Below, in pieces: positions 16,823 to 28,286 of a stretch of 46,712 bases of DNA. The notes under the pieces are model-generated. The model worked only from the letters and a program-made list of their open reading frames with translations. It had not been told where the DNA came from and ran no database searches. Each line of letters starts with the position of its first letter. Position 1 is the first letter of the stretch. The position numbers and the translations under genes were made by a program. The stretch is from Candidatus Omnitrophota bacterium (GTDB lineage: Bacteria > Omnitrophota > Gorgyraeia > Zapsychrales > Fredricksoniimonadaceae): positions 1 through 46,712 of the forward strand of contig JADGCU010000010.1 of assembly GCA_015228785.1 (NCBI GenBank), read 5' to 3'.

Positions 16823-17883
16823 AGAAGGATTGTTACACATATGTTTATGGGTTGATGACAGATCGAGAAAAGGGGGCGATGGCATCTTTTTTTAAGATTT
16901 GTCTATTTCTTATTTCCGGTCTTTATCGTTTGGGTCTTTTGGTGCGCTCTTGGACGTACGCACTTAAATTCTCTGCTGTCTATTGTTCTCAGCGCAAGGT
17001 GATCAGTGTGGGGAATATGACCATGGGGGGTGTGGGTAAGACTCCGATGGTTGTCTATCTGGTCAAGGCACTTCAAAAACGTAAGATATGTCCGGTTGTT
17101 GTGACGCGTGGATACATGATGGATAAGGCTGCTGAGGGGGATGAGGTTAAAATGCTTCGGGAGATAGTTCCTGGCATGGCTGTTTATGCGGGCGCTAATA
17201 GGGTGGTCTCGATTCAGCAGGCGGAGAAGGATGGTGCTGGCGAGGTTTTCATCTTGGATGATGGTTTTCAGCATTGGCGCGTTGCCCGGGACTTTGATAT
17301 CGTCGTCCTGGATGCGATGTGTGCTTTCGGAAATGGTCAGGTTTTGCCTCGAGGCATTCTGCGAGAACCTATCTCATCGATTTCTAGGGCAGATGTTATT
17401 GTCTTGGCGCGTGCTGACGTTGGAAGGGATAATGTCGCGTCTCTTCGTGAGGTGTGTGGCCGTTTTAATGCCAAGGCGCTTGTTGTTGAAGCTGTTCATG
17501 AGCCCCTTAGTGTAACGAATTTGATGTCAGGAAAGAGTTGGAATGATTTTTCTGTTATCAAGGAAGATATTGGGATGGTATGCGCGATAGGTTCTCCAGA
17601 TAATTTTCGTTTATCTTTAGAAGTTCTTGGGGCTAAAGTGAACGTTTCTTTTGTTTACCGAGACCACTATTCTTATACTGTGGATGATATAAAGAGTGTC
17701 ATCAAGGAGTGCAGGGCTTTGGGGATCCGGAAGCTTGTGACGACGCATAAGGATGCGGTCAAGCTTCGGGAGTTTGCAAATCTTTGGGATGGGGTTGAGG
17801 TTTTTGTTTTGGATGTGGAGATTAGGATTATTTATGGGGAAGCTGAATTCCTTTCAAGGATCGATCGCCTGTTTCATTCTTAA
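16819..17883 (+). CDS. lpxK: Tetraacyldisaccharide 4'-kinase
   Basis: Phosphorylates the 4' position of the lipid A disaccharide on the inner face of the inner membrane. About 354 residues from the GTG at 16819, which overlaps the waaA stop as GTGA; the ORF track begins seven codons earlier inside waaA. A hydrophobic N-terminal segment (FFKICLFLISGLYRLGLLV) precedes SVGNMTMGGVGKTP, the P-loop. Next come TRGY and DDGFQH, the conserved Asp pair, then QVLPRGILREP and TTHKDAVKL near the end. It overlaps the following acyltransferase gene by about 50 bases. Confidence 0.94.
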   Translation: MKKDCYTYVYGLMTDREKGAMASFFKICLFLISGLYRLGLLVRSWTYALKFSAVYCSQRKVISVGNMTMGGVGKTPMVVYLVKALQKRKICPVVVTRGYMMDKAAEGDEVKMLREIVPGMAVYAGANRVVSIQQAEKDGAGEVFILDDGFQHWRVARDFDIVVLDAMCAFGNGQVLPRGILREPISSISRADVIVLARADVGRDNVASLREVCGRFNAKALVVEAVHEPLSVTNLMSGKSWNDFSVIKEDIGMVCAIGSPDNFRLSLEVLGAKVNVSFVYRDHYSYTVDDIKSVIKECRALGIRKLVTTHKDAVKLREFANLWDGVEVFVLDVEIRIIYGEAEFLSRIDRLFHS

Positions 17884-19807
17884 GGCGTTCGCTGTGTTGT
17901 TGCGGATTTTGCCTATGCCGGCCACGCTATGGGTGGGGCGGCGCATTGGGGAGGCTGTGTGTTTCTTGGGTGCCAAGAACGCCCGTAAAACGCGCAATAA
18001 TATCAAGGTAGCTTTTGGTTCGAGAAAGTCACGCCGAGAGATAGATCAGATCATCCGGGGCTTTTACCATCTTTACGGGCAAAATATTGTTGAGCTTGCG
18101 CAGCTTCCCTTGATCGCGAAAAGAGGGTTTGAAAAATATGTTGAGGTGGAAGGACGAGAGCATGTTGCCGCAGCGATGAAAAAGGGTAAGGGACTTATTT
18201 TTCTTTCCATGCATTCGGGAAATTGGGAGCTTTCCAATATTGTTGGGAGCATGAGCGGGTATCCTTACAGCATGGTTGCTAATTATTTGGAGCAAATTGA
18301 CAAGATCGCGGATTATTTGGATTCCCTGCGTCAGAGTGCTGGGTGTAACATTATAAATCCTGGTGTTGCCGGACGTGAGATCATCAAGCGTCTTAAGAAG
18401 AACGAGATCGTAACGCTTGTGGCTGATCAGGGTGGCGAGGAAGGCGTTCTTGTGCCTTTTTTTGGGCGAGAGGCGTCGATGTCAACCGGGGCTGTAAGGC
18501 TAGCGTTAAAATACGGTGCATCTATTTGCTTAGTTGATATTCATCGGGTAGGGACAGGGAGGCATCGCCTTGTTGCAAAGCCTTTTGATGTTGTCGATAC
18601 GGGAGATACTGAAAAAGATGTGCGTTTGAATATGGAGAAGATAGCTTCTTGGTTTCAGGCACGCATTGAGGAACATCCGTCAGAATATATCTGGTCTTAT
18701 GGGACATGGAAATATTCGTCTGTCCGTCATCTTGTTGTTCTTGATGATGGAAGGACAGGACATTTACGTCAGTCTGAGGCTGTGGCGAGGCATTTGAAGA
18801 TTGCCCTTGAGGAAGCCTCGCGCATTGTGACAACACAAACGCTTCGTGTTGAATACAAGAGCGGATGGCATGCGTTCTTTTTAGGGCTTATAGCATGGTT
18901 GCGATTTCCATTTATGCCAAAGGACGGTCGTATGTTGAAGCCTTTCTTAACAGCGGAGACCGTTGAGCGGCTTTCAGTTGTTAAGGCAGATTTTGTTGTG
19001 TCATGCGGGGCAAGGAATGCGGTGGTTAATTATTGTTTTTCTCAAGAAAATTATGCACGGAACATTGCGATCTTACGTCCAGGAATGGTTCCTTATGATT
19101 ATTTTAAACTTGTGGTTCTCCCCGAGCATGATCGAGTTTCAGGTCTTAATTTCTCTAATCTTCTGTTGACGAAAGCGGCACCGAATTTGATTGATAAGGA
19201 TTATCTGGAGGACAACAAACGCCGTCTGTTGAATCGTTTTTCTCACTTAAAAATGAATTTAGCTCCTAAGTTTGGTGTTTTGATTGGTGGAGACGCCAAA
19301 GGCGTGACGATGACAGAACGACAAATGAAGGTGATCTTCCATCAGTTGAAAGAGATTGCCCAGCGATATGGGGCTGAATTTCTTATAACAACATCTCGCC
19401 GAACATCGCTTGAAATCGATCGGCTTGTTATGAAGGAATTTAAGGATTATGGGCGGACAGCTCTTTTGGTTGTTGCGAATCGTAATAATGTCCCGGAAGC
19501 CGTAGGGGGGATCTTGGCGCTTTCAGATGTCCTCATCGTTTCAGGGGAAAGCATTTCCATGGTGTCTGAGGCGACTTCATCAGGGAAAAAGACGATTGTT
19601 TTTCCGATCGATGGGAATAGTCTGCGGCCAGTTGAAAATAAATATTTTCATTTTGTTGAAGAGCTTGGCAAGCAGGGGCATATCATTTATACAGAAACGA
19701 GGGGCATGGGACAGGCCGTTGATGATGCTCTGAAAGGTAAGATCATGACGCGTCCTATTCATGATCAAGGTCTTATTTTAGAAGCTATGAGAAAGATAAT
19801 CGCATGA
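17834..19807 (+). CDS. Fusion: lipid A acyltransferase (LpxL-type) + ELM1/DUF1022 domain
   Basis: Residues ~1-295 match LpxL/LpxM lauroyl/myristoyl transferases. They have an N-terminal hydrophobic helix, the catalytic HX4E box HSGNWE (H127, E132), and VADQGGEEGVLVPFFGREA. These add secondary acyl chains to lipid A. Residues ~298-657 match the ELM1-like family (Mito_fiss_Elm1/DUF1022), with LDDGRTGHLRQS, CGARNAVVN, LPEHDRVSG, LIGGDAKGVTMT and VSGESISMVSEA. That family has a glycosyltransferase-like fold and is often encoded near LPS genes. The start chosen is ATG 17834; the ORF track's 17753 would lengthen the lpxK overlap with poor sequence. The overlap with the next gene is ATGA. The domain calls are strong; the role of the ELM1 half is unknown. 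Confidence 0.88.
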   Translation: MGKLNSFQGSIACFILKAFAVLLRILPMPATLWVGRRIGEAVCFLGAKNARKTRNNIKVAFGSRKSRREIDQIIRGFYHLYGQNIVELAQLPLIAKRGFEKYVEVEGREHVAAAMKKGKGLIFLSMHSGNWELSNIVGSMSGYPYSMVANYLEQIDKIADYLDSLRQSAGCNIINPGVAGREIIKRLKKNEIVTLVADQGGEEGVLVPFFGREASMSTGAVRLALKYGASICLVDIHRVGTGRHRLVAKPFDVVDTGDTEKDVRLNMEKIASWFQARIEEHPSEYIWSYGTWKYSSVRHLVVLDDGRTGHLRQSEAVARHLKIALEEASRIVTTQTLRVEYKSGWHAFFLGLIAWLRFPFMPKDGRMLKPFLTAETVERLSVVKADFVVSCGARNAVVNYCFSQENYARNIAILRPGMVPYDYFKLVVLPEHDRVSGLNFSNLLLTKAAPNLIDKDYLEDNKRRLLNRFSHLKMNLAPKFGVLIGGDAKGVTMTERQMKVIFHQLKEIAQRYGAEFLITTSRRTSLEIDRLVMKEFKDYGRTALLVVANRNNVPEAVGGILALSDVLIVSGESISMVSEATSSGKKTIVFPIDGNSLRPVENKYFHFVEELGKQGHIIYTETRGMGQAVDDALKGKIMTRPIHDQGLILEAMRKIIA

Positions 19808-21909
19808 AGATTCTTCAAGTCCTTCCTGAAATGAATGTGGGGGGTGTTGAACGGGGGGTTTTGGACCTTGCCAAATATCTTGTGAAGCAGGGACATGAGT
19901 CTCTTGTTGTCTCGCATGGGGGATCCATGGTTGAGGCACTTGAGGCGCAGGGCACGAAACATTACACCCTTGCGGTTCATAAGAAAGATCTTTTTTCGAT
20001 GTGGGAATGCTCTGGGGAACTCGAGAAGATCATTCTTAAGGAGGGCGTTGATATCGTCCATGCCCGTTCGCGCGTTCCGGCATGGATTGCCTATTTTTCA
20101 TGCCGACGGACGAATGCGGCCTTTGTGACAACTTGTCACGGGTACTATTCGAAAAATATTTTCAGCCATGTGATGGGATGGGGCAAGCTTGTCATCGTGA
20201 TTAGTGAGATTATCGGACGCCACATGATCGAGGATTTTCGTGTTCATCCTGAGAATATTCGCCTTATTCATCGCAGTGTGGATCTGGATAAATTTAAATT
20301 TCGTGAGCGTCGGGTAGGACAGTCGGCATTCACTGTTTCGATGGTGGGCCGCATCACGCCGCTTAAAGGACATGCCTTCTTTTTGGAAGCTATGGCCAAA
20401 GTTATTCGGCAGATGCCGTATGTTCGGGTGCGGATCATTGGTGATGCGCCGGCGAATAAGCGTGTTTATAAGGACCGGCTTGTTCTTCTAACAAGGCGTC
20501 TGGGGATATCGGAGAAGGTGGAATTCTTAGGTAATCGAGCTGATATTCCGCAGCTTCTGGAAGAATCTGATGTTCTGGTTTTATCAACTATTACGCATGA
20601 AGCTTTTGGTCGTGTCATTGTCGAGGCCCAGGCTGTGGGGGTTCCTGTTGTGGTGACAAAGGTGGGAGGGGTTGTTGATATTGTGGAGCATGAGAAGACC
20701 GGGCTTGTGGTTCTGCCCCGAGATGTTGATGCCATGGCGAGTGCGGTTATGCGCATTATCAAAGAACCGAAATTGGCTGACGCGATGATTTTGGAAGCTC
20801 GTAAACGTGTCGAGGAGAAATACACGCTTGAACAGATGGCAACCGCTACGATCAAGGTTTATCAAGAACTTAAAACGTCACTTAATATTCTTGTTATTAA
20901 ATTGAGCGCAGTGGGGGATGTTATCCTTGCGACAGCCGCGTTGAGGGCCTTGCGTAAGAAATATCCACAGGCGAAGATTTGTTGTTTGGTGGGGCGTGAT
21001 GGCGCTGCGATGATCCAGGGATGTCCTTATGTTGATGAGGTGATCACCTACGATTACAAAGGTAGGGACAAGGGTGTTTTTGGTTTTAAGAGAATGCTCG
21101 GGGTATTACGTAAATATCGGTTTGATAAGATTATTGACTTTCAGAATAATAACAGGAGCCATCTTTTGTCCTTTTTGTGTTTTCCGCGAGCGAGTTATGG
21201 TTATCGCAATAAAAAATTGGGATGTCTTCTTTCGCATGGCATTCTAAATGATCAGCCCAATATTCCTCCTGTGCGTCATCAGTTTCGGCTTCTTGAGCAG
21301 TTAGATATTGTTTATGATGAGGATGTCAGACTGGAAATGTGGCCCAGGCCTGACGATATACTTTACGCTAAAGAGCTTCTTCATGGCAATTGGATTGATG
21401 AGAAGAATCATACCGTTGTGGGTGTCAATATTTCGGCTTCTGAACGATGGCCGACAAAGAATTTGCCTATGAAGTCTGTGGCTGATTTATGTGACAAGAT
21501 GTCAGCGGATAATATTCGCGTTATTATCACGGGGATGGAAAAAGATGCTTCGTTGGTCAGGCAATTGAGCGGTCATCTTAAATCCAAGCCCGCGATCTTT
21601 GTGGGGAAGACGAATTTGTTGCAGCTTGCGGCCCTGATTAGTTTGTGCAAGGTTTATGTGACGTCTGATTCGGCCCCGCTTCATGTTGCCGCTGCCATGG
21701 ATGTCCCGGTTGTTGCTTTTTTTGGGCCTACGAATCCTGAGCGTCATATTCCGCCCGCTTCGCGTTTGAAGGTTATTAAGAAAGATTTGGCGTGTCAGGC
21801 ATGTTATTTAACGGAGTGTAAGAATAAGAAACATGCCTGCATGGTTGATATCACATCTGTTGAGGTTTATGCGGAGATCAAGAAATTTCTGGGTAAAGCG
21901 AAGACATGA
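19804..21909 (+). CDS. Fusion glycosyltransferase: GT4 + GT9 (heptosyltransferase-like)
   Basis: One 701-residue reading frame joins two glycosyltransferases. Residues 1-358 are GT4. They open with LPEMNVGGVERGVLDLA and hold RITPLKGH and the EX7E motif in HEAFGRVIVEAQ (E266, E274). Residues ~361-701 are GT9. They open with ILVIKLSAVGDVILATAALRAL, and contain the nucleotide-sugar motif TSDSAPLHVAAAMDVPVVAFFGPT and the Cys-bearing tail CQACYLTECKNKKHAC common in heptosyltransferases. A single polypeptide probably adds two successive LPS core sugars at the inner face of the membrane. It overlaps both neighbours by four bases. The donor sugars cannot be told from sequence alone. Confidence 0.9.
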   Translation: MKILQVLPEMNVGGVERGVLDLAKYLVKQGHESLVVSHGGSMVEALEAQGTKHYTLAVHKKDLFSMWECSGELEKIILKEGVDIVHARSRVPAWIAYFSCRRTNAAFVTTCHGYYSKNIFSHVMGWGKLVIVISEIIGRHMIEDFRVHPENIRLIHRSVDLDKFKFRERRVGQSAFTVSMVGRITPLKGHAFFLEAMAKVIRQMPYVRVRIIGDAPANKRVYKDRLVLLTRRLGISEKVEFLGNRADIPQLLEESDVLVLSTITHEAFGRVIVEAQAVGVPVVVTKVGGVVDIVEHEKTGLVVLPRDVDAMASAVMRIIKEPKLADAMILEARKRVEEKYTLEQMATATIKVYQELKTSLNILVIKLSAVGDVILATAALRALRKKYPQAKICCLVGRDGAAMIQGCPYVDEVITYDYKGRDKGVFGFKRMLGVLRKYRFDKIIDFQNNNRSHLLSFLCFPRASYGYRNKKLGCLLSHGILNDQPNIPPVRHQFRLLEQLDIVYDEDVRLEMWPRPDDILYAKELLHGNWIDEKNHTVVGVNISASERWPTKNLPMKSVADLCDKMSADNIRVIITGMEKDASLVRQLSGHLKSKPAIFVGKTNLLQLAALISLCKVYVTSDSAPLHVAAAMDVPVVAFFGPTNPERHIPPASRLKVIKKDLACQACYLTECKNKKHACMVDITSVEVYAEIKKFLGKAKT

Positions 21910-23000: not shown

Positions 23001-24013
23001 AGAATATTCTCGTCGTTTCAGTCAATTGGCTAGGGGATGCTGTCTTTGAAACGCCCGTTTTTCGGGCACTCAAGACGAAGTATCCGGGTTCCTGGATCAC
23101 GTGTCTGTGCGTGCCGCGCGTTGCTGATGTTCTGGCTATGTGCCCGGATATCGATGAGATCATGGTGTATGATGAAAGAGGAAAAGATCAACCCTTCTTT
23201 TCAAGAGTATTTCTGATTATGAAGATTCTTAAGAAGAGGTTTGATGCGGCTTTTATTCTTCGTAAATCTTTGTCGCGTTCGCTTTTGCTCATGTTGGCAG
23301 GCATCCCTTTGCGTATTGGTTTTGCTGATAAGTCTTGGGACTGGCTTTTGACCCATGTTGTGGATGATGATGGGCTGGATGAGAAGCATCGTTCTGATGT
23401 GTATGTAAGTGTTGTTGAGTCTTTAGGGATTTCAACCTGGGATCGCTCTTGTCGTTTGGTTGCGCCAGAGAGTTTTGTGAGAGGTGTGCGCGAGTCGCTT
23501 GCGCAGAAGGGAATCTCAGATCAGGATCGTTTGATCGCTGTGAATACGGGGGGAAATTGGAATCTCAAGCAGTGGCCACCTGAAAAGTTTGCTGAGCTTG
23601 TACGCAAGGTTTATGCTCGAGGTTTGGGAAAAGTTGTTCTTCCGGGTGCGGTCAAAGATGTTGATCGCGTTAATCAGATCGCAGCGCTTTCCGGGGTGAG
23701 TCCTATAGTGATGGCAGGTGAGACGGGGATTAAATGTCTGGCGGGGCTTTTTACGCGGGTTAATCTTCTGATCACGGCGGATACGGGGCCTCTTCATTTG
23801 GCATCGGCACTAGGGGCGAGTGTGATCTCTATTTTTGGTCCGACAAGGCCTGAGATTACTGGTCCTCGGGGACCGGGACGTGCCGTGATCTTGCAAAAGG
23901 ATGTCGGGTGTAACCGTGCGCCGTGCTATTATCTGGAGTGCGGGGACAATAAATGCATGAAGGAGGTGTCTGTTGAAGATGTTCTCCAGGCTATCCAGCA
24001 AATCCAAAGTTGA
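22997..24013 (+). CDS. Glycosyltransferase family 9, heptosyltransferase II-like
   Basis: Probably adds ADP-heptose to the inner LPS core. The 338 residues begin with ILVVSVNWLGDAVFETPVFRAL, as in WaaF-type enzymes. The C-terminal half has NTGGNWNLKQWPPEKFAEL and ITADTGPLHLASALGASVISIFGPT (donor binding). The tail has the Cys pattern CNRAPCYYLECGDNKC followed by SVEDV. Of the GT9 proteins here it looks closest to WaaF, but I do not assign the symbol because several paralogues sit side by side. It overlaps the next gene by 41 bases. Confidence 0.88.
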   Translation: MKNILVVSVNWLGDAVFETPVFRALKTKYPGSWITCLCVPRVADVLAMCPDIDEIMVYDERGKDQPFFSRVFLIMKILKKRFDAAFILRKSLSRSLLLMLAGIPLRIGFADKSWDWLLTHVVDDDGLDEKHRSDVYVSVVESLGISTWDRSCRLVAPESFVRGVRESLAQKGISDQDRLIAVNTGGNWNLKQWPPEKFAELVRKVYARGLGKVVLPGAVKDVDRVNQIAALSGVSPIVMAGETGIKCLAGLFTRVNLLITADTGPLHLASALGASVISIFGPTRPEITGPRGPGRAVILQKDVGCNRAPCYYLECGDNKCMKEVSVEDVLQAIQQIQS

Positions 24014-24920
24014 GAAGATCCTACTTGTTTCTCTCACTAATATCGGGGATGTGATTCTGACGTTTCCTGTCTTTGATGTGCTTCGTGAACGCTTTCCAGA
24101 GGCTGAGATATCTGTTGTTGTGGGACCCAAGGCCAGGAGCCTTCTGGAGGATAATCCCCATGTTTATCGTCTGTATGTTTATGACAAGCGAGCGAGTGTC
24201 AAAGAACAGTGGCGGTGGTTGAGGTCAGTTCGCAGTCAGGATTTTGATCTGGTCGTGGATCTTCGTAATTCCATGATGCCGTTTCTTGTGAAAGGACGTG
24301 TTCTGACGCGTCCGGTGTTGGGGTGCAAGCCAAAATGTCATATGAAAGACAAGCATATGGGTCGGCTTGATCTTGTGCTGAAAGATGTGACGCCCTCAAG
24401 GTCCAGGTTGGCTTTGTATGTTTCGTCTTCTGATGAGAAATATGCTCATGGTCTTTTGAAGGGACGCAAGGATTATGTTGTATTGGCGCCGGGTGCTGCT
24501 GATGATCGCAAGCGTTGGTCTGAGGAGCGTTTTGCGGAGATTGGTAAGTATTTGATGCGTAATTATAAAGCGGGCATTGTTATTGTGGGGGATAAAAATG
24601 ATGCCAAGATTGCAGAGCGTCTCTTGAAGAATGGTTCGCAAGGGATCGTGAATATCGCGGGGCAGACAAACTTGCCTCAGTTGGGTGCGGTCCTCAAAGG
24701 GGCAAAGCTCGCGATTACCAATGACAGTGGCATTATGCATATGGCCAGCTATTTGAATATTCCTGTGATCGCGCTTTTTGGTCCCACGGATCCGGAATGC
24801 TATGGTCCTTGGAGCGGCAATCGCTATGTTTTGCGGCAAGGCCCTTCGATGGAGAAGATCCAGGTCGCGGATGTCTGTTCTGCTATTGATGATTGGTTTC
24901 ATGGTCATGCCGCAATTTAA
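23973..24920 (+). CDS. Glycosyltransferase family 9
   Basis: A 315-residue heptosyltransferase-family protein. The N-terminal ILLVSLTNIGDVILTFPVFDVL and the C-terminal ITNDSGIMHMASYLNIPVIALFGPT are clear GT9 motifs. Unlike its neighbours it lacks the Cys-containing tail, ending soon after the last motif. The TTG at 23973 has AGGAGG six bases before it; the ATG at 23979 would have a 12-base gap, so TTG is preferred, giving a 41-base overlap with the previous gene. It acts in the LPS core; the sugar is unknown. Confidence 0.87.
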   Translation: MKMFSRLSSKSKVEKILLVSLTNIGDVILTFPVFDVLRERFPEAEISVVVGPKARSLLEDNPHVYRLYVYDKRASVKEQWRWLRSVRSQDFDLVVDLRNSMMPFLVKGRVLTRPVLGCKPKCHMKDKHMGRLDLVLKDVTPSRSRLALYVSSSDEKYAHGLLKGRKDYVVLAPGAADDRKRWSEERFAEIGKYLMRNYKAGIVIVGDKNDAKIAERLLKNGSQGIVNIAGQTNLPQLGAVLKGAKLAITNDSGIMHMASYLNIPVIALFGPTDPECYGPWSGNRYVLRQGPSMEKIQVADVCSAIDDWFHGHAAI

Positions 24921-24961: not shown

Positions 24962-25729
24962 GTGAAGCGATTTCTATTTATTTTTAGTTTTCTGGTTTGG
25001 TCTACATTTTCGTATGCCCAAGAAGTTGACAAAATTCTTTTTAAGGGCTATAGCACGGCGTTTGTTATTTATAACCGTTCTTCTGGAGCTGTTGTGAATG
25101 TGGATCCGGTGTTGAGTGCCCGACGTTTGCCCCCGTGCTCTACTTTTAAAATTTACAATACCCTCATTGGATTAGACCTGGACTTGATTCCGGGGGCAGA
25201 TGCTCCATGGTATAAGTGGAATGGCGTTCATCGCTCTATAGATGGATGGAATCAGGATTTGACTCTTCGTGAAGCATTTCGCGTGTCGGCTGTGCCCGCT
25301 TATCAGATTTTGGCGCGTCAGATTGGCGTTGAGCGCATGAAAGAATATGTCGATCAAATTGATTATGGAACCAGAGATATTTCTGCGGGGATCGATGTAT
25401 TCTGGCTTGACCGAAATGATGCGGTTTCGATCAAGATCAGCGCTGATGAGCAGGTCGCTCTTTTAAATAAGCTTCTTGATGGGAGGCTGCCGTTTGCGCA
25501 AAAGAATATCGCGATTCTGAAAGATGTCATGCAATTGGTTAAAACGGATAAGGGGACGCTTTACGGTAAGACGGGATCAGGCTCTGATGTGGGATGGCTT
25601 GTCGGGTTTGTTGAACACGGGGAGACGACATATGTTTTCGCATGTAATATTATTGGTGGAGAGAATCCTTCTGGGAAGGTCGCGCGGGCAATCGTAGAAG
25701 ATGTTTTTAAATCTCAAGGGCTTCTTTAG
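24962..25729 (+). CDS. Secreted class D (OXA-type) beta-lactamase-like protein
   Basis: The start is GTG 24962, with AAGGA five bases before it; the ORF track start at 24893 lies in the previous gene. The 255-residue product opens with a signal peptide (MKRFLFIFSFLVWSTFSYAQ). It has all main class D motifs: S60-T-F-K63 (nucleophile Ser and the Lys that is carboxylated), S109-A-V111, Y135-G-T137 (usually YGN), W148 next to the active site, and K203-T-G205. Family members hydrolyse penicillins and some other beta-lactams in the periplasm. A penicillin-binding or sensor role without hydrolysis is possible. It sits between heptosyltransferase genes and has no mobile element nearby, so it looks chromosomal and intrinsic. 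Confidence 0.9.
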   Translation: MKRFLFIFSFLVWSTFSYAQEVDKILFKGYSTAFVIYNRSSGAVVNVDPVLSARRLPPCSTFKIYNTLIGLDLDLIPGADAPWYKWNGVHRSIDGWNQDLTLREAFRVSAVPAYQILARQIGVERMKEYVDQIDYGTRDISAGIDVFWLDRNDAVSIKISADEQVALLNKLLDGRLPFAQKNIAILKDVMQLVKTDKGTLYGKTGSGSDVGWLVGFVEHGETTYVFACNIIGGENPSGKVARAIVEDVFKSQGLL

Positions 25730-25779: not shown

Positions 25780-25806
25780 TTGACATGCAGGGTTGCCACA
25801 TATAAT
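25780..25806 (+). promoter_or_regulatory. Promoter with consensus hexamers and 15-base spacer
   Basis: A perfect TTGACA (25780-25785) and a perfect TATAAT (25801-25806) are separated by only 15 bases, shorter than the optimal 17. The gap after the beta-lactamase-like gene is ~110 bases and no terminator was found in it. The leader to the GT9 start at 25841 has no Shine-Dalgarno. Confidence 0.55.
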
Positions 25807-25840: not shown

Positions 25841-26899
25841 ATGACAAAGACAGCTAATAATAAAGATTTTAGACGAATTCTGATTATTCGCACTGACAGG
25901 ATCGGGGATGCGATTCTGTCAACGCCTGTTATTGAGGCGATGAGGAATGCTTACCCATCTGCACATATTGCGGTCATGGCGCGGGTTTATGCTAAAGACG
26001 TGATCGAGGGAAATCCTTATTTGAATGAAGTAATTATTTATAACAAGAAGGAAGTAGAAGAGAGTTTGTTGGGGCTTCTCAAATTTGCGTTTGAAATCAG
26101 AAGAAAGAATTTTGATCTTGCCCTTATCTTACATCCTACTAACAGTGTTCATCTTTTGTCTTTTCTAGCCGGGATCCCCAGAAGAGTTGGATATGATCGG
26201 AAAATGGGATTTCTTTTGACGGATCGAATCGCGCATACAAAGCAGTTGGGCGAGAAGCATGAGATGGAATATGCGCTTGATCTGGTGAGGCATTTGGGGA
26301 TAAGTCCTCAGCACCATGGTCCTTTTGCGCCGTTAAATCCTGCTTCTGAAAAGCGGGCGGATGAATTATTCAAGAAACACGGGATCACGCCGCAGGATAA
26401 AGTTCTGGCGCTTCATCCGGGGACGAGTTGTAAGTCCAAGATGTGGTCGCAGGAACGATTTGCCCAGGCAGCGGATGAATTGGTGAAGACCAGTGGGTTT
26501 AAAGTTTTGGTTATGGGTGGTCCGGATGAAAAAGAGATCACGGGAAATGTCCTTAAGAATATGAAGTCTCCGGCCATTGACCTGACCGGAATCTCCGTAA
26601 GTCAGGATGTTAGTGTTCTCAAAAGATGCGGCCTTTTGATTACAACGGACTGCGGGACGATGCATATTGCGGCTGCTTTGGGGGTCCCTCTTGTTGTTAT
26701 TTTTGGACGAAAACAGGCAGGCATCAGTCCTGTTCGTTTTGGCCCTGTTAGTAAGAAGAGCCGTGTCTTGCATAAAGATGTTGGCTGCGAGACGTGTTTG
26801 GCTCATGACTGCACCAAGGGCTTTGCCTGTCTTCAGGCTGTGAGTGTTAAGGAAGTTGTGGATGTGGCTCAGAGTCTTCTTGGGGAATCTCATGGTTAA
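25841..26899 (+). CDS. Glycosyltransferase family 9, heptosyltransferase-like
   Basis: A 352-residue GT9 enzyme of LPS core synthesis. It opens with RILIIRTDRIGDAILSTPVIEAM. The second half has ALHPGTSCKSKMWSQERFAQA and the donor motif ITTDCGTMHIAAALGVPLVVIFG. The tail carries the heptosyltransferase Cys pattern CETCLAHDCTKGFAC followed by VSVKEVV. The ATG at 25841 has no clear ribosome site. The gene overlaps the next by eight bases. It is transcribed from the promoter just upstream, separately from the first half of the LPS cluster. Confidence 0.88.
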   Translation: MTKTANNKDFRRILIIRTDRIGDAILSTPVIEAMRNAYPSAHIAVMARVYAKDVIEGNPYLNEVIIYNKKEVEESLLGLLKFAFEIRRKNFDLALILHPTNSVHLLSFLAGIPRRVGYDRKMGFLLTDRIAHTKQLGEKHEMEYALDLVRHLGISPQHHGPFAPLNPASEKRADELFKKHGITPQDKVLALHPGTSCKSKMWSQERFAQAADELVKTSGFKVLVMGGPDEKEITGNVLKNMKSPAIDLTGISVSQDVSVLKRCGLLITTDCGTMHIAAALGVPLVVIFGRKQAGISPVRFGPVSKKSRVLHKDVGCETCLAHDCTKGFACLQAVSVKEVVDVAQSLLGESHG

Positions 26900-28286
26900 A
26901 GCAAAGACTACATTTTCACGAAAAGAGATCTCTATATTGTGCGCTCAGGCTACGGATCCGGATGAAGTTATTAGTAAGCCCGCTGTTGGTCGGTTGTTTT
27001 CGGATGTCGTTGAGAGTCTTTGTGATTCTTTTTTGCCAAGACGGGTTGCGCTCTATGACAGGATTTTTGCGCAGGTTATTGATTATTGTCGGCATCTGCC
27101 GGATGGTCAGGGGATGGATGATCTTTTAAAGAGATTTGGTTTGAGCGATGAGCGGGCTATCCTGGCTCGAAAGAAAAACGTAGAGAAAATGCGCAAATTC
27201 TCGGTTGCGAACCGGAAAAAGGTTAAAAAGATTTGTGTCCTTTCGCGAGTGACGATTGGGGCAGACGTTGCGGTTACAGGTGTTGTGCTGAGCAAGTTGG
27301 TGAATATCTTTCCTGGGGTGTGTATTGTTGTGATCGGTCCTAAGAAGCTTGTGGAAGTCTTTGGCGGGCATCCGAATATTTCAATTAAAGAAGTGCCTTA
27401 TGTAAGGCGAGGTGGTCTTTTGGGGCGGTTGAACTCCTGGGTTGATCTTGTTTGCGTTATCGATGAGGAAAGGCGAGGCCTTAGGCCTGATGAGTTTTTG
27501 CTGATTGATCCGGATTCTCGTTTGACGCAGCTTGGCCTTTTGCCTGTCATTCCTAAAGATGATGGATATTATTTCTTTCAGAGTCGGACGTATGCGAAGG
27601 CGCGTTCAGGTCGGATTGGAGAACTTACGGCGAATTGGTTGGATCAGGTTTTTGGTCCTGGCAGTCAAAAAACATATCCAGAAATTTTCATTGATAAGAA
27701 TATTCTGAAAATAGGTAGAGCCTGTGCTCAAAAACTTTCTCATTCAGGGGCGAGGCCTATTGTTTGTATTAATTTTGGCGTGGGAGGAAATGAGAAGAAG
27801 AGGGTCTCGCCTGACTTTGAAGACAATCTGGTGAGGGATATCCTGAATCAGGGGGCGGCGGTTATTTTGGATAAAGGTTTTGGTGATGAAGTTGATATGG
27901 TAAATGTTTTGGTTTCAAAGTTGCGGGCTCAAGGAAAGATTGTTCTTGATGCCAATGAGGGGAATATTTTTAAATTGGCCAAAGAGAGTGCTTGGCCCTG
28001 TGATGTCCTGACTTGGGAAGGCGGGCTTGCCGTTTTTGGCGCGCTTATCGCGTCTAGCAATGTTTATATGGGGTATGATTCGGGATTTCAGCATATCGCC
28101 TCTGCCCAAGGAGTTCCTATTGTTGATATCTTTTTTGGTGCGCCATCTTCGTTGTTTATTAAGCGCTGGACCCCGTATGGTAAAAACAGGGTTAAGATCG
28201 TGGGAGGTCAAAGCCTTAAGAAGGACGATGTAACCCCTGATCATGTCCTTTCTGCCCTCAAGAAACTACTTTCAGAACAGCCTTAA
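26892..28286 (+). CDS. Divergent GT9-like protein with N-terminal extension
   Basis: About 464 residues from ATG 26892; the ORF track begins 16 codons earlier inside the previous gene. Residues ~112-460 show a worn GT9 pattern: KKICVLSRVTIGADVAVTGVVL at the start of the domain and SNVYMGYDSGFQHIASAQGVPIVDIFFG near the end, where GT9 enzymes have DSGPLHLAAALGVP. The first ~110 residues are not recognised and look helical and soluble. The tail lacks the Cys pattern of its neighbours. It may use another donor or be a non-catalytic partner. It ends the GT block before hldA. Confidence 0.7.
   Translation: MVKAKTTFSRKEISILCAQATDPDEVISKPAVGRLFSDVVESLCDSFLPRRVALYDRIFAQVIDYCRHLPDGQGMDDLLKRFGLSDERAILARKKNVEKMRKFSVANRKKVKKICVLSRVTIGADVAVTGVVLSKLVNIFPGVCIVVIGPKKLVEVFGGHPNISIKEVPYVRRGGLLGRLNSWVDLVCVIDEERRGLRPDEFLLIDPDSRLTQLGLLPVIPKDDGYYFFQSRTYAKARSGRIGELTANWLDQVFGPGSQKTYPEIFIDKNILKIGRACAQKLSHSGARPIVCINFGVGGNEKKRVSPDFEDNLVRDILNQGAAVILDKGFGDEVDMVNVLVSKLRAQGKIVLDANEGNIFKLAKESAWPCDVLTWEGGLAVFGALIASSNVYMGYDSGFQHIASAQGVPIVDIFFGAPSSLFIKRWTPYGKNRVKIVGGQSLKKDDVTPDHVLSALKKLLSEQP

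Follow-up and report, generated by a model that had tools for sequence, protein, structure and literature searches.

Does a class D beta-lactamase-like gene that stands within an LPS-core gene cluster belong to that cluster and to its host lineage, and does it encode an enzyme or a sensor? The question is raised by a 46,712-nucleotide stretch of DNA, here called the window, from a draft Omnitrophota MAG (2.02 Mb, 82% complete), in which an earlier note made from the sequence alone had recognised such a gene and proposed either an ancient intrinsic beta-lactamase or a penicillin-binding protein used in envelope sensing. We consider it highly probable that the gene product is an exported class D (OXA-domain) beta-lactamase from a subfamily found in Omnitrophota and in the green sulphur bacteria of the Chlorobiaceae, and that the gene was laterally acquired and inserted between two heptosyltransferase genes of the LPS-core cluster. 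The protein combines the class D fold and the full class D catalytic motif set with a single-domain secreted architecture, its distribution is patchy, and the syntenic cluster of relatives is free of the gene.

The open reading frame (24962-25729, forward strand) runs from a GTG start to a TAG stop and encodes a single-domain protein of the secreted type, 255 aa long and hence below 350 aa, with residues numbered here from the GTG at 24962. Its N-terminus, which reads VKRFLFIFSFLVWSTFSYAQE from the in-frame GTG, shows a typical signal-peptide pattern as judged by eye on the translation; this segment, residues 1-20 (24962-25021, +), ends approximately between FSYA and QE and has low pLDDT in the structural model. 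The SxxK, SxV and K(T/S)G motifs follow in order on the forward strand as STFK (residues 60-63; nucleophile Ser60 and Lys63; 25139-25150), SAV (S109-V111; 25286-25294) and KTG (K203-T-G205; 25568-25576), while YGT (Y135-G-T137; 25364-25372) occupies the YGN position and FWL (F147-W148-L; 25400-25408) carries the omega-loop tryptophan Trp148. Translation, alignment and profiles thus confirm the reading frame and motifs first read by eye, and an alignment of 32 homologues shows no variation at the Ser, Lys, Val, Trp and KTG positions. YGN is a common accessory motif of class D outside the three defining ones, and the earlier note had taken its change to YGT as the mark of a divergent member. Within the clade described below, its third residue is S in 12, N in 9 (including all six Chlorobiaceae members) and T in 7 of 28 sequences, which does not support that view. 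Since this residue varies while the catalytic Ser, Lys, Trp and KTG are fixed, we read YGT as a variable position of the subfamily and no sign of lost function. Moreover, third codon positions differ most from the homologues (0.46-0.57, against 0.11-0.16 at second positions), the pattern expected of a maintained gene, and at 0.43 the gene's GC3 is only slightly lower than in the genes of the window (0.48 +/- 0.04).

Profile searches gave a match to the NCBIfam class D model (bla_class_D_main; E 1.9e-60, 204.1 bits) that falls below its naming cut-off of 250 bits, a conservative annotation threshold, and the best subfamily model, BPU, likewise scored below its cut-off (174.8 against 525 bits). 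The Pfam Transpeptidase match was weaker (1.8e-26, 93 bits), and the generic BlaR1 model matched across the sensor domain (2.2e-51), the N-terminal receptor part of BlaR being absent from the protein. A PDB search returned 136 distinct sequences at E <= 1e-8, with beta-lactamases throughout among the matches listed, so that chance similarity is no explanation. The structure prediction that the earlier note had named as a check also gave a class D fold: the AlphaFold2 model, built from the alignment of 32 homologues, reached a pLDDT of 91 and a pTM of 0.86, and its best 50 Foldseek matches were all class D beta-lactamases, BPU-1 first and YbxI/BSU-2 among the nearest structures. Sequence, fold and source in an Omnitrophota MAG therefore agree with the description of a class D beta-lactamase-like chromosomal gene of an uncultivated lineage.

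The best reading of the protein is a periplasmic class D beta-lactamase that would work by acyl-enzyme chemistry. This chemistry is established for class D enzymes: the serine is acylated, the carbamylated lysine of motif 1 serves as base, and water activated by that lysine deacylates the enzyme. The present protein would be exported to the periplasm, where a beta-lactam would acylate Ser60 while carbamylated Lys63 acts as general base; Trp148 would stabilise the Lys63 carbamate, Lys63 would activate the water for deacylation, and the resulting hydrolysis would spare the cell's own PBPs. Other loci of the genome code for PBP-type transpeptidase domains, which would give beta-lactams plausible targets in the cell. 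By the length and SxV motif that distinguish soluble enzymes from BlaR, the protein fits the soluble-enzyme group and not BlaR, and seven of ten enzymes picked from uncharacterised clusters in the same study hydrolysed at least nitrocefin (Lupo et al., 2022; PMC9045261).

The genomic setting was then compared with that of relatives. The cluster comprises LPS-core genes, namely an acyltransferase, a GT4, several GT9 heptosyltransferases, an HldE-type kinase and KdsB, and profile matches to PF01075 on both sides uphold the heptosyltransferase surroundings that had been noted. The left border of the putative insertion is a GT9 heptosyltransferase-type gene (23973-24920, +), whose orthologue abuts that of the gene at 25841 in relatives, and the right border is this GT9 heptosyltransferase II-type gene (25841-26899, +), both placed by profile match and synteny. 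All 16 same-family genomes fetched hold the syntenic cluster, none with a beta-lactamase gene in it; in 15 of them, the same-genus genome G299 included, the two flanking genes adjoin each other, and in the remaining one (G386, L129) a secreted serpin occupies the slot. Conserved membership of the LPS cluster is hence not seen for the beta-lactamase gene in relatives. No heptosyltransferases stand beside the other homologues in the neighbourhood comparison, and no gene neighbourhood is conserved among the homologues, the neighbours differing in every other one. Because the relatives have the cluster without the gene and the other homologues lack such neighbours, the gene appears to be an insertion into an older LPS cluster, and the envelope role drawn from this setting in the earlier note finds no support in it, whether as LPS synthesis or as sensing. 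The gene begins 42 bp behind the preceding LPS gene in the same direction, which suggests co-transcription and not a role in LPS synthesis, and scans for a promoter or terminator of its own gave results at shuffle level. A promoter-like pair, TTGACA and TATAAT with a 15-nt spacer (25780-25806, +), lies between the beta-lactamase gene and the next LPS gene; it was seen by eye only, is absent from the scan list, and its spacer is below the optimum.

Further features of the cluster deserve mention. A 480-aa ORF (26844-28286, +) has only a weak C-terminal GT9 match (3.8e-05) and is missing from the syntenic cluster of all 16 relatives fetched; judged from this comparison, it is apparently a second lineage-specific gain beside the beta-lactamase gene. 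Besides, the window encodes two double-domain proteins, one joining a lipid A acyltransferase to an ELM1-like domain (17753-19807, +) and the other GT4 to GT9 glycosyltransferase domains (19804-21909, +), and each is matched by a syntenic gene in relatives of the same family.

The homologues recovered by scanning GTDB genomes belong to Omnitrophota and Chlorobiaceae at 54-72% identity, with a gap before the next ones, at about 43% in Negativicutes. In the tree, 28 homologues form one clade with 100/100 support and a long stem (0.96), 22 of them from Omnitrophota (the window gene included) and six from Chlorobiaceae; a simpler tree agrees on this clade. The phylogeny against OXA families and BlaR domains, which the earlier note had proposed, thus places the clade outside the reference OXA groups and, in the best tree, apart from BlaR domains, although its union with the latter was not rejected (p-AU 0.19). 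Neither by clade nor by score does the window protein belong to a named OXA subfamily (OXA-1, -2, -10, -23, -24, -48, -50, -58, -85, LCR-1 or BPU), and the clade also stands apart from BSU. All six Chlorobiaceae sequences fall into a single subclade within the Omnitrophota ones, which suggests one transfer between the two phyla; in an unrooted tree, its direction would be an inference. Omnitrophota also have a second type of class D homologue, only distantly related (L068, L069 and L071; 27-31% identity to the window protein), which groups with OXA-1 on long branches. In Sporomusaceae and Synergistaceae, class D genes (L032, L035, L036 and L037) adjoin BlaR-like ORFs of about 600 aa. The sensor domains of these ORFs and Staphylococcus BlaR1 make up one clade in the tree, and the class D genes beside them are likely under BlaR control.

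Among 384 Omnitrophota genomes, members of the clade were found in 18 (matches of at least 54% identity, fragments counted), and none was found in the same-genus genome G299. Members from different families and orders are 65-72% identical to one another. Holding the two members of family f4 together was rejected (p-AU 0.011), the same constraint was borderline for f35 (p-AU 0.055), and it was not rejected for the window's own family f1, that is, the window and L062 (p-AU 0.113); the family groups were picked after the tree had been seen, so these p-values are indicative. For at least one of the families tested, the gene tree would thus depart from taxonomy. In addition, two loci from families of different orders (L007 and L009) both carry the gene with flanks at 83% nucleotide identity, and the region of their downstream DUF6088/AbiEi-like gene, about 800 bp, is 90% identical. 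At a further locus (L010:2900-4152), two direct repeats of 46 nt, 89% alike and 1207 bp apart, enclose the class D gene, and genes for a large serine recombinase and a DUF2924 protein stand next to it; this may be a mobile unit. At the window copy no mobile element is visible, as the earlier note had stated; no tRNA was found in the window, and no convincing repeats frame the gene there, longer pairs occurring only between paralogous heptosyltransferase genes. As no trace of movement is left and the composition is close to that of the neighbours, the insertion in the window is probably not recent. Two specific vehicles were considered and rejected: the integron cassette, as a simple pattern found no attC-like pairs near the gene in 24 homologues and the window, and a plasmid or phage origin, as there were remote matches only (40.8% at best on plasmids, none above 60%). 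Given the occurrence in 18 of 384 genomes and the signs of lateral movement, the gene appears accessory and not intrinsic, within a patchy, laterally moving family.

Could the protein nevertheless be a pseudo-beta-lactamase or penicillin-binding protein, which keeps fold and motifs and is acylated with negligible turnover, and which may act on cell-wall peptides or bind drugs? We regard this as improbable. Its closest relatives by sequence, BPU-1 and FUS-1, are active beta-lactamases, Lys63, Trp148 and KTG are invariant, and the class D model scores far above the generic Transpeptidase model (204 against 93 bits). On the other side, 19 of the 28 clade members have T or S in place of the YGN asparagine, and the YbxI/BAC-1 cluster, which has so far yielded only pseudo-beta-lactamases (pseudo-DBL), combines the complete motif set with weak or absent activity (Lupo et al., 2022; PMC9045261) and is represented among the structural neighbours. 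A BlaR/MecR-like sensor for beta-lactams or for the envelope, which would have shed its membrane part and would work with the LPS cluster, is very improbable, even though the BlaR1 model match across the sensor domain and the unrejected union with BlaR domains speak for it. The single secreted domain of 255 aa has no membrane or M56 peptidase part (BlaR/MecR proteins have about 600 aa), and its SAV lacks the polar third residue of SxV used as a criterion for BlaR (PMC9045261), which the Sporomusaceae and Synergistaceae BlaR sets carry as SVS or SVN. Moreover, the 82%-complete genome gave no match to a BlaI-type repressor, and the LPS cluster does without the gene in all relatives compared. Architecture, motif and the lack of a repressor match thus all disfavour the sensing role offered in the earlier note.

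The other proposal of that note was an ancient intrinsic gene, which would here be an Omnitrophota enzyme inherited vertically, lost many times and moved within genomes. The Omnitrophota share of the clade (22 of 28) with its single Chlorobiaceae subclade, as well as a base composition near that of the window's genes, would agree with it. We nevertheless think this history unlikely: the gene occurs in few genomes and is missing from the same-genus one, identity remains at 65-72% across families and orders, and the monophyly of f4 is rejected, so that gene tree and taxonomy conflict in at least one case. Besides, L007 and L009 share their 90%-identical downstream gene across orders, and the L010 copy is framed by direct repeats beside a serine recombinase.

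Serpins provide a further lead. In one genome (G087:C13), a class D beta-lactamase domain is fused to a C-terminal serpin in a 648-aa protein (L026:7995-9941, +; the same gene as L062), the serpin part spanning residues 282-648 (1.5e-106); the fused ORF lies directly behind an O-antigen ligase gene, after Wzz/Wzc-like genes, and the finding comes from this single genome. The serpin in the LPS slot of G386 (C92; L129:3132-4366, +) is secreted (PF00079, 1e-95) and stands between the two heptosyltransferase genes; it and the fused serpin are not each other's closest relatives. Across the 384 genomes, co-occurrence of serpins and class D genes is weakly raised (4 genomes have both where 1.3 would be expected; hypergeometric P 0.03, no correction for relatedness), too weakly to lean on. 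Because the same slot holds a beta-lactamase in the window and a serpin in G386, and the two are fused in G087, one may speculate that in Omnitrophota both belong to a linked and exchangeable stock of secreted cargo for envelope protection, an idea to which we give little credence at present. A literature search found no paper on a class D/serpin fusion among the ten titles listed out of 65 matches. To a specialist, the fusion and the common slot would be what stands out as unusual; both are offered as a lead and not as the main claim.

Taken as a class D beta-lactamase, the protein represents a new branch of a well-known kind of enzyme and not a new system. It adds a well-supported, laterally moving class D branch in a phylum for which the literature examined describes no beta-lactamases, and extends the environmental reservoir of class D enzymes to uncultivated Omnitrophota and to Chlorobiaceae. 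The case also illustrates how an LPS setting can mislead, as what looked like a functional link reads as an insertion once relatives are compared. With the keywords tried, our literature search found no paper that joins Omnitrophota with class D beta-lactamases, and the consulted text of Lupo et al. (2022; PMC9045261) does not mention Omnitrophota. Ten class D sequences from Chlorobi were reported there, which may overlap with our Chlorobiaceae homologues; the latter are 62-66% identical to the window protein, fall inside the same 100/100 clade, and all six read YGN in place of YGT.

Among known systems, the BlaR1 sensor domain of Staphylococcus and Sporomusa shares the OXA fold, SxxK and KTG with the window protein, but BlaR1 is a receptor of 585-609 aa with a polar third residue in SxV and forms a separate clade (99/97). 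YbxI/BSU-2/BAT-2 from Bacillus (PDB 5e2f, 6w5e, 6w5g) have fold and motifs in common with it at 33-37% identity, and BSU-2 is among the best PDB relatives by sequence together with BPU-1 and FUS-1. FUS-1/OXA-85 from Fusobacterium (PDB 4ied) matches over nearly the full length, part of the signal peptide included (7.2e-43); all catalytic positions align and the SxVPAY-type second motif region is shared, whereas identity is 35% and FUS-1 groups in the tree with OXA-50-like and Cetobacterium enzymes, away from the window clade. The best sequence match is BPU-1, a Bacillus class D beta-lactamase (PDB 5ctn/5ctm; E 4.9e-45 for 5ctn), which superposes on the model with a TM of up to 0.93 and an rmsd of 1.6 at about 40% identity. 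The two proteins share all catalytic motifs at aligned positions, but BPU-1 has YGN and SVV where the window protein has YGT and SAV, the latter carries a short insertion after FWL, and they belong to different clades of the tree.
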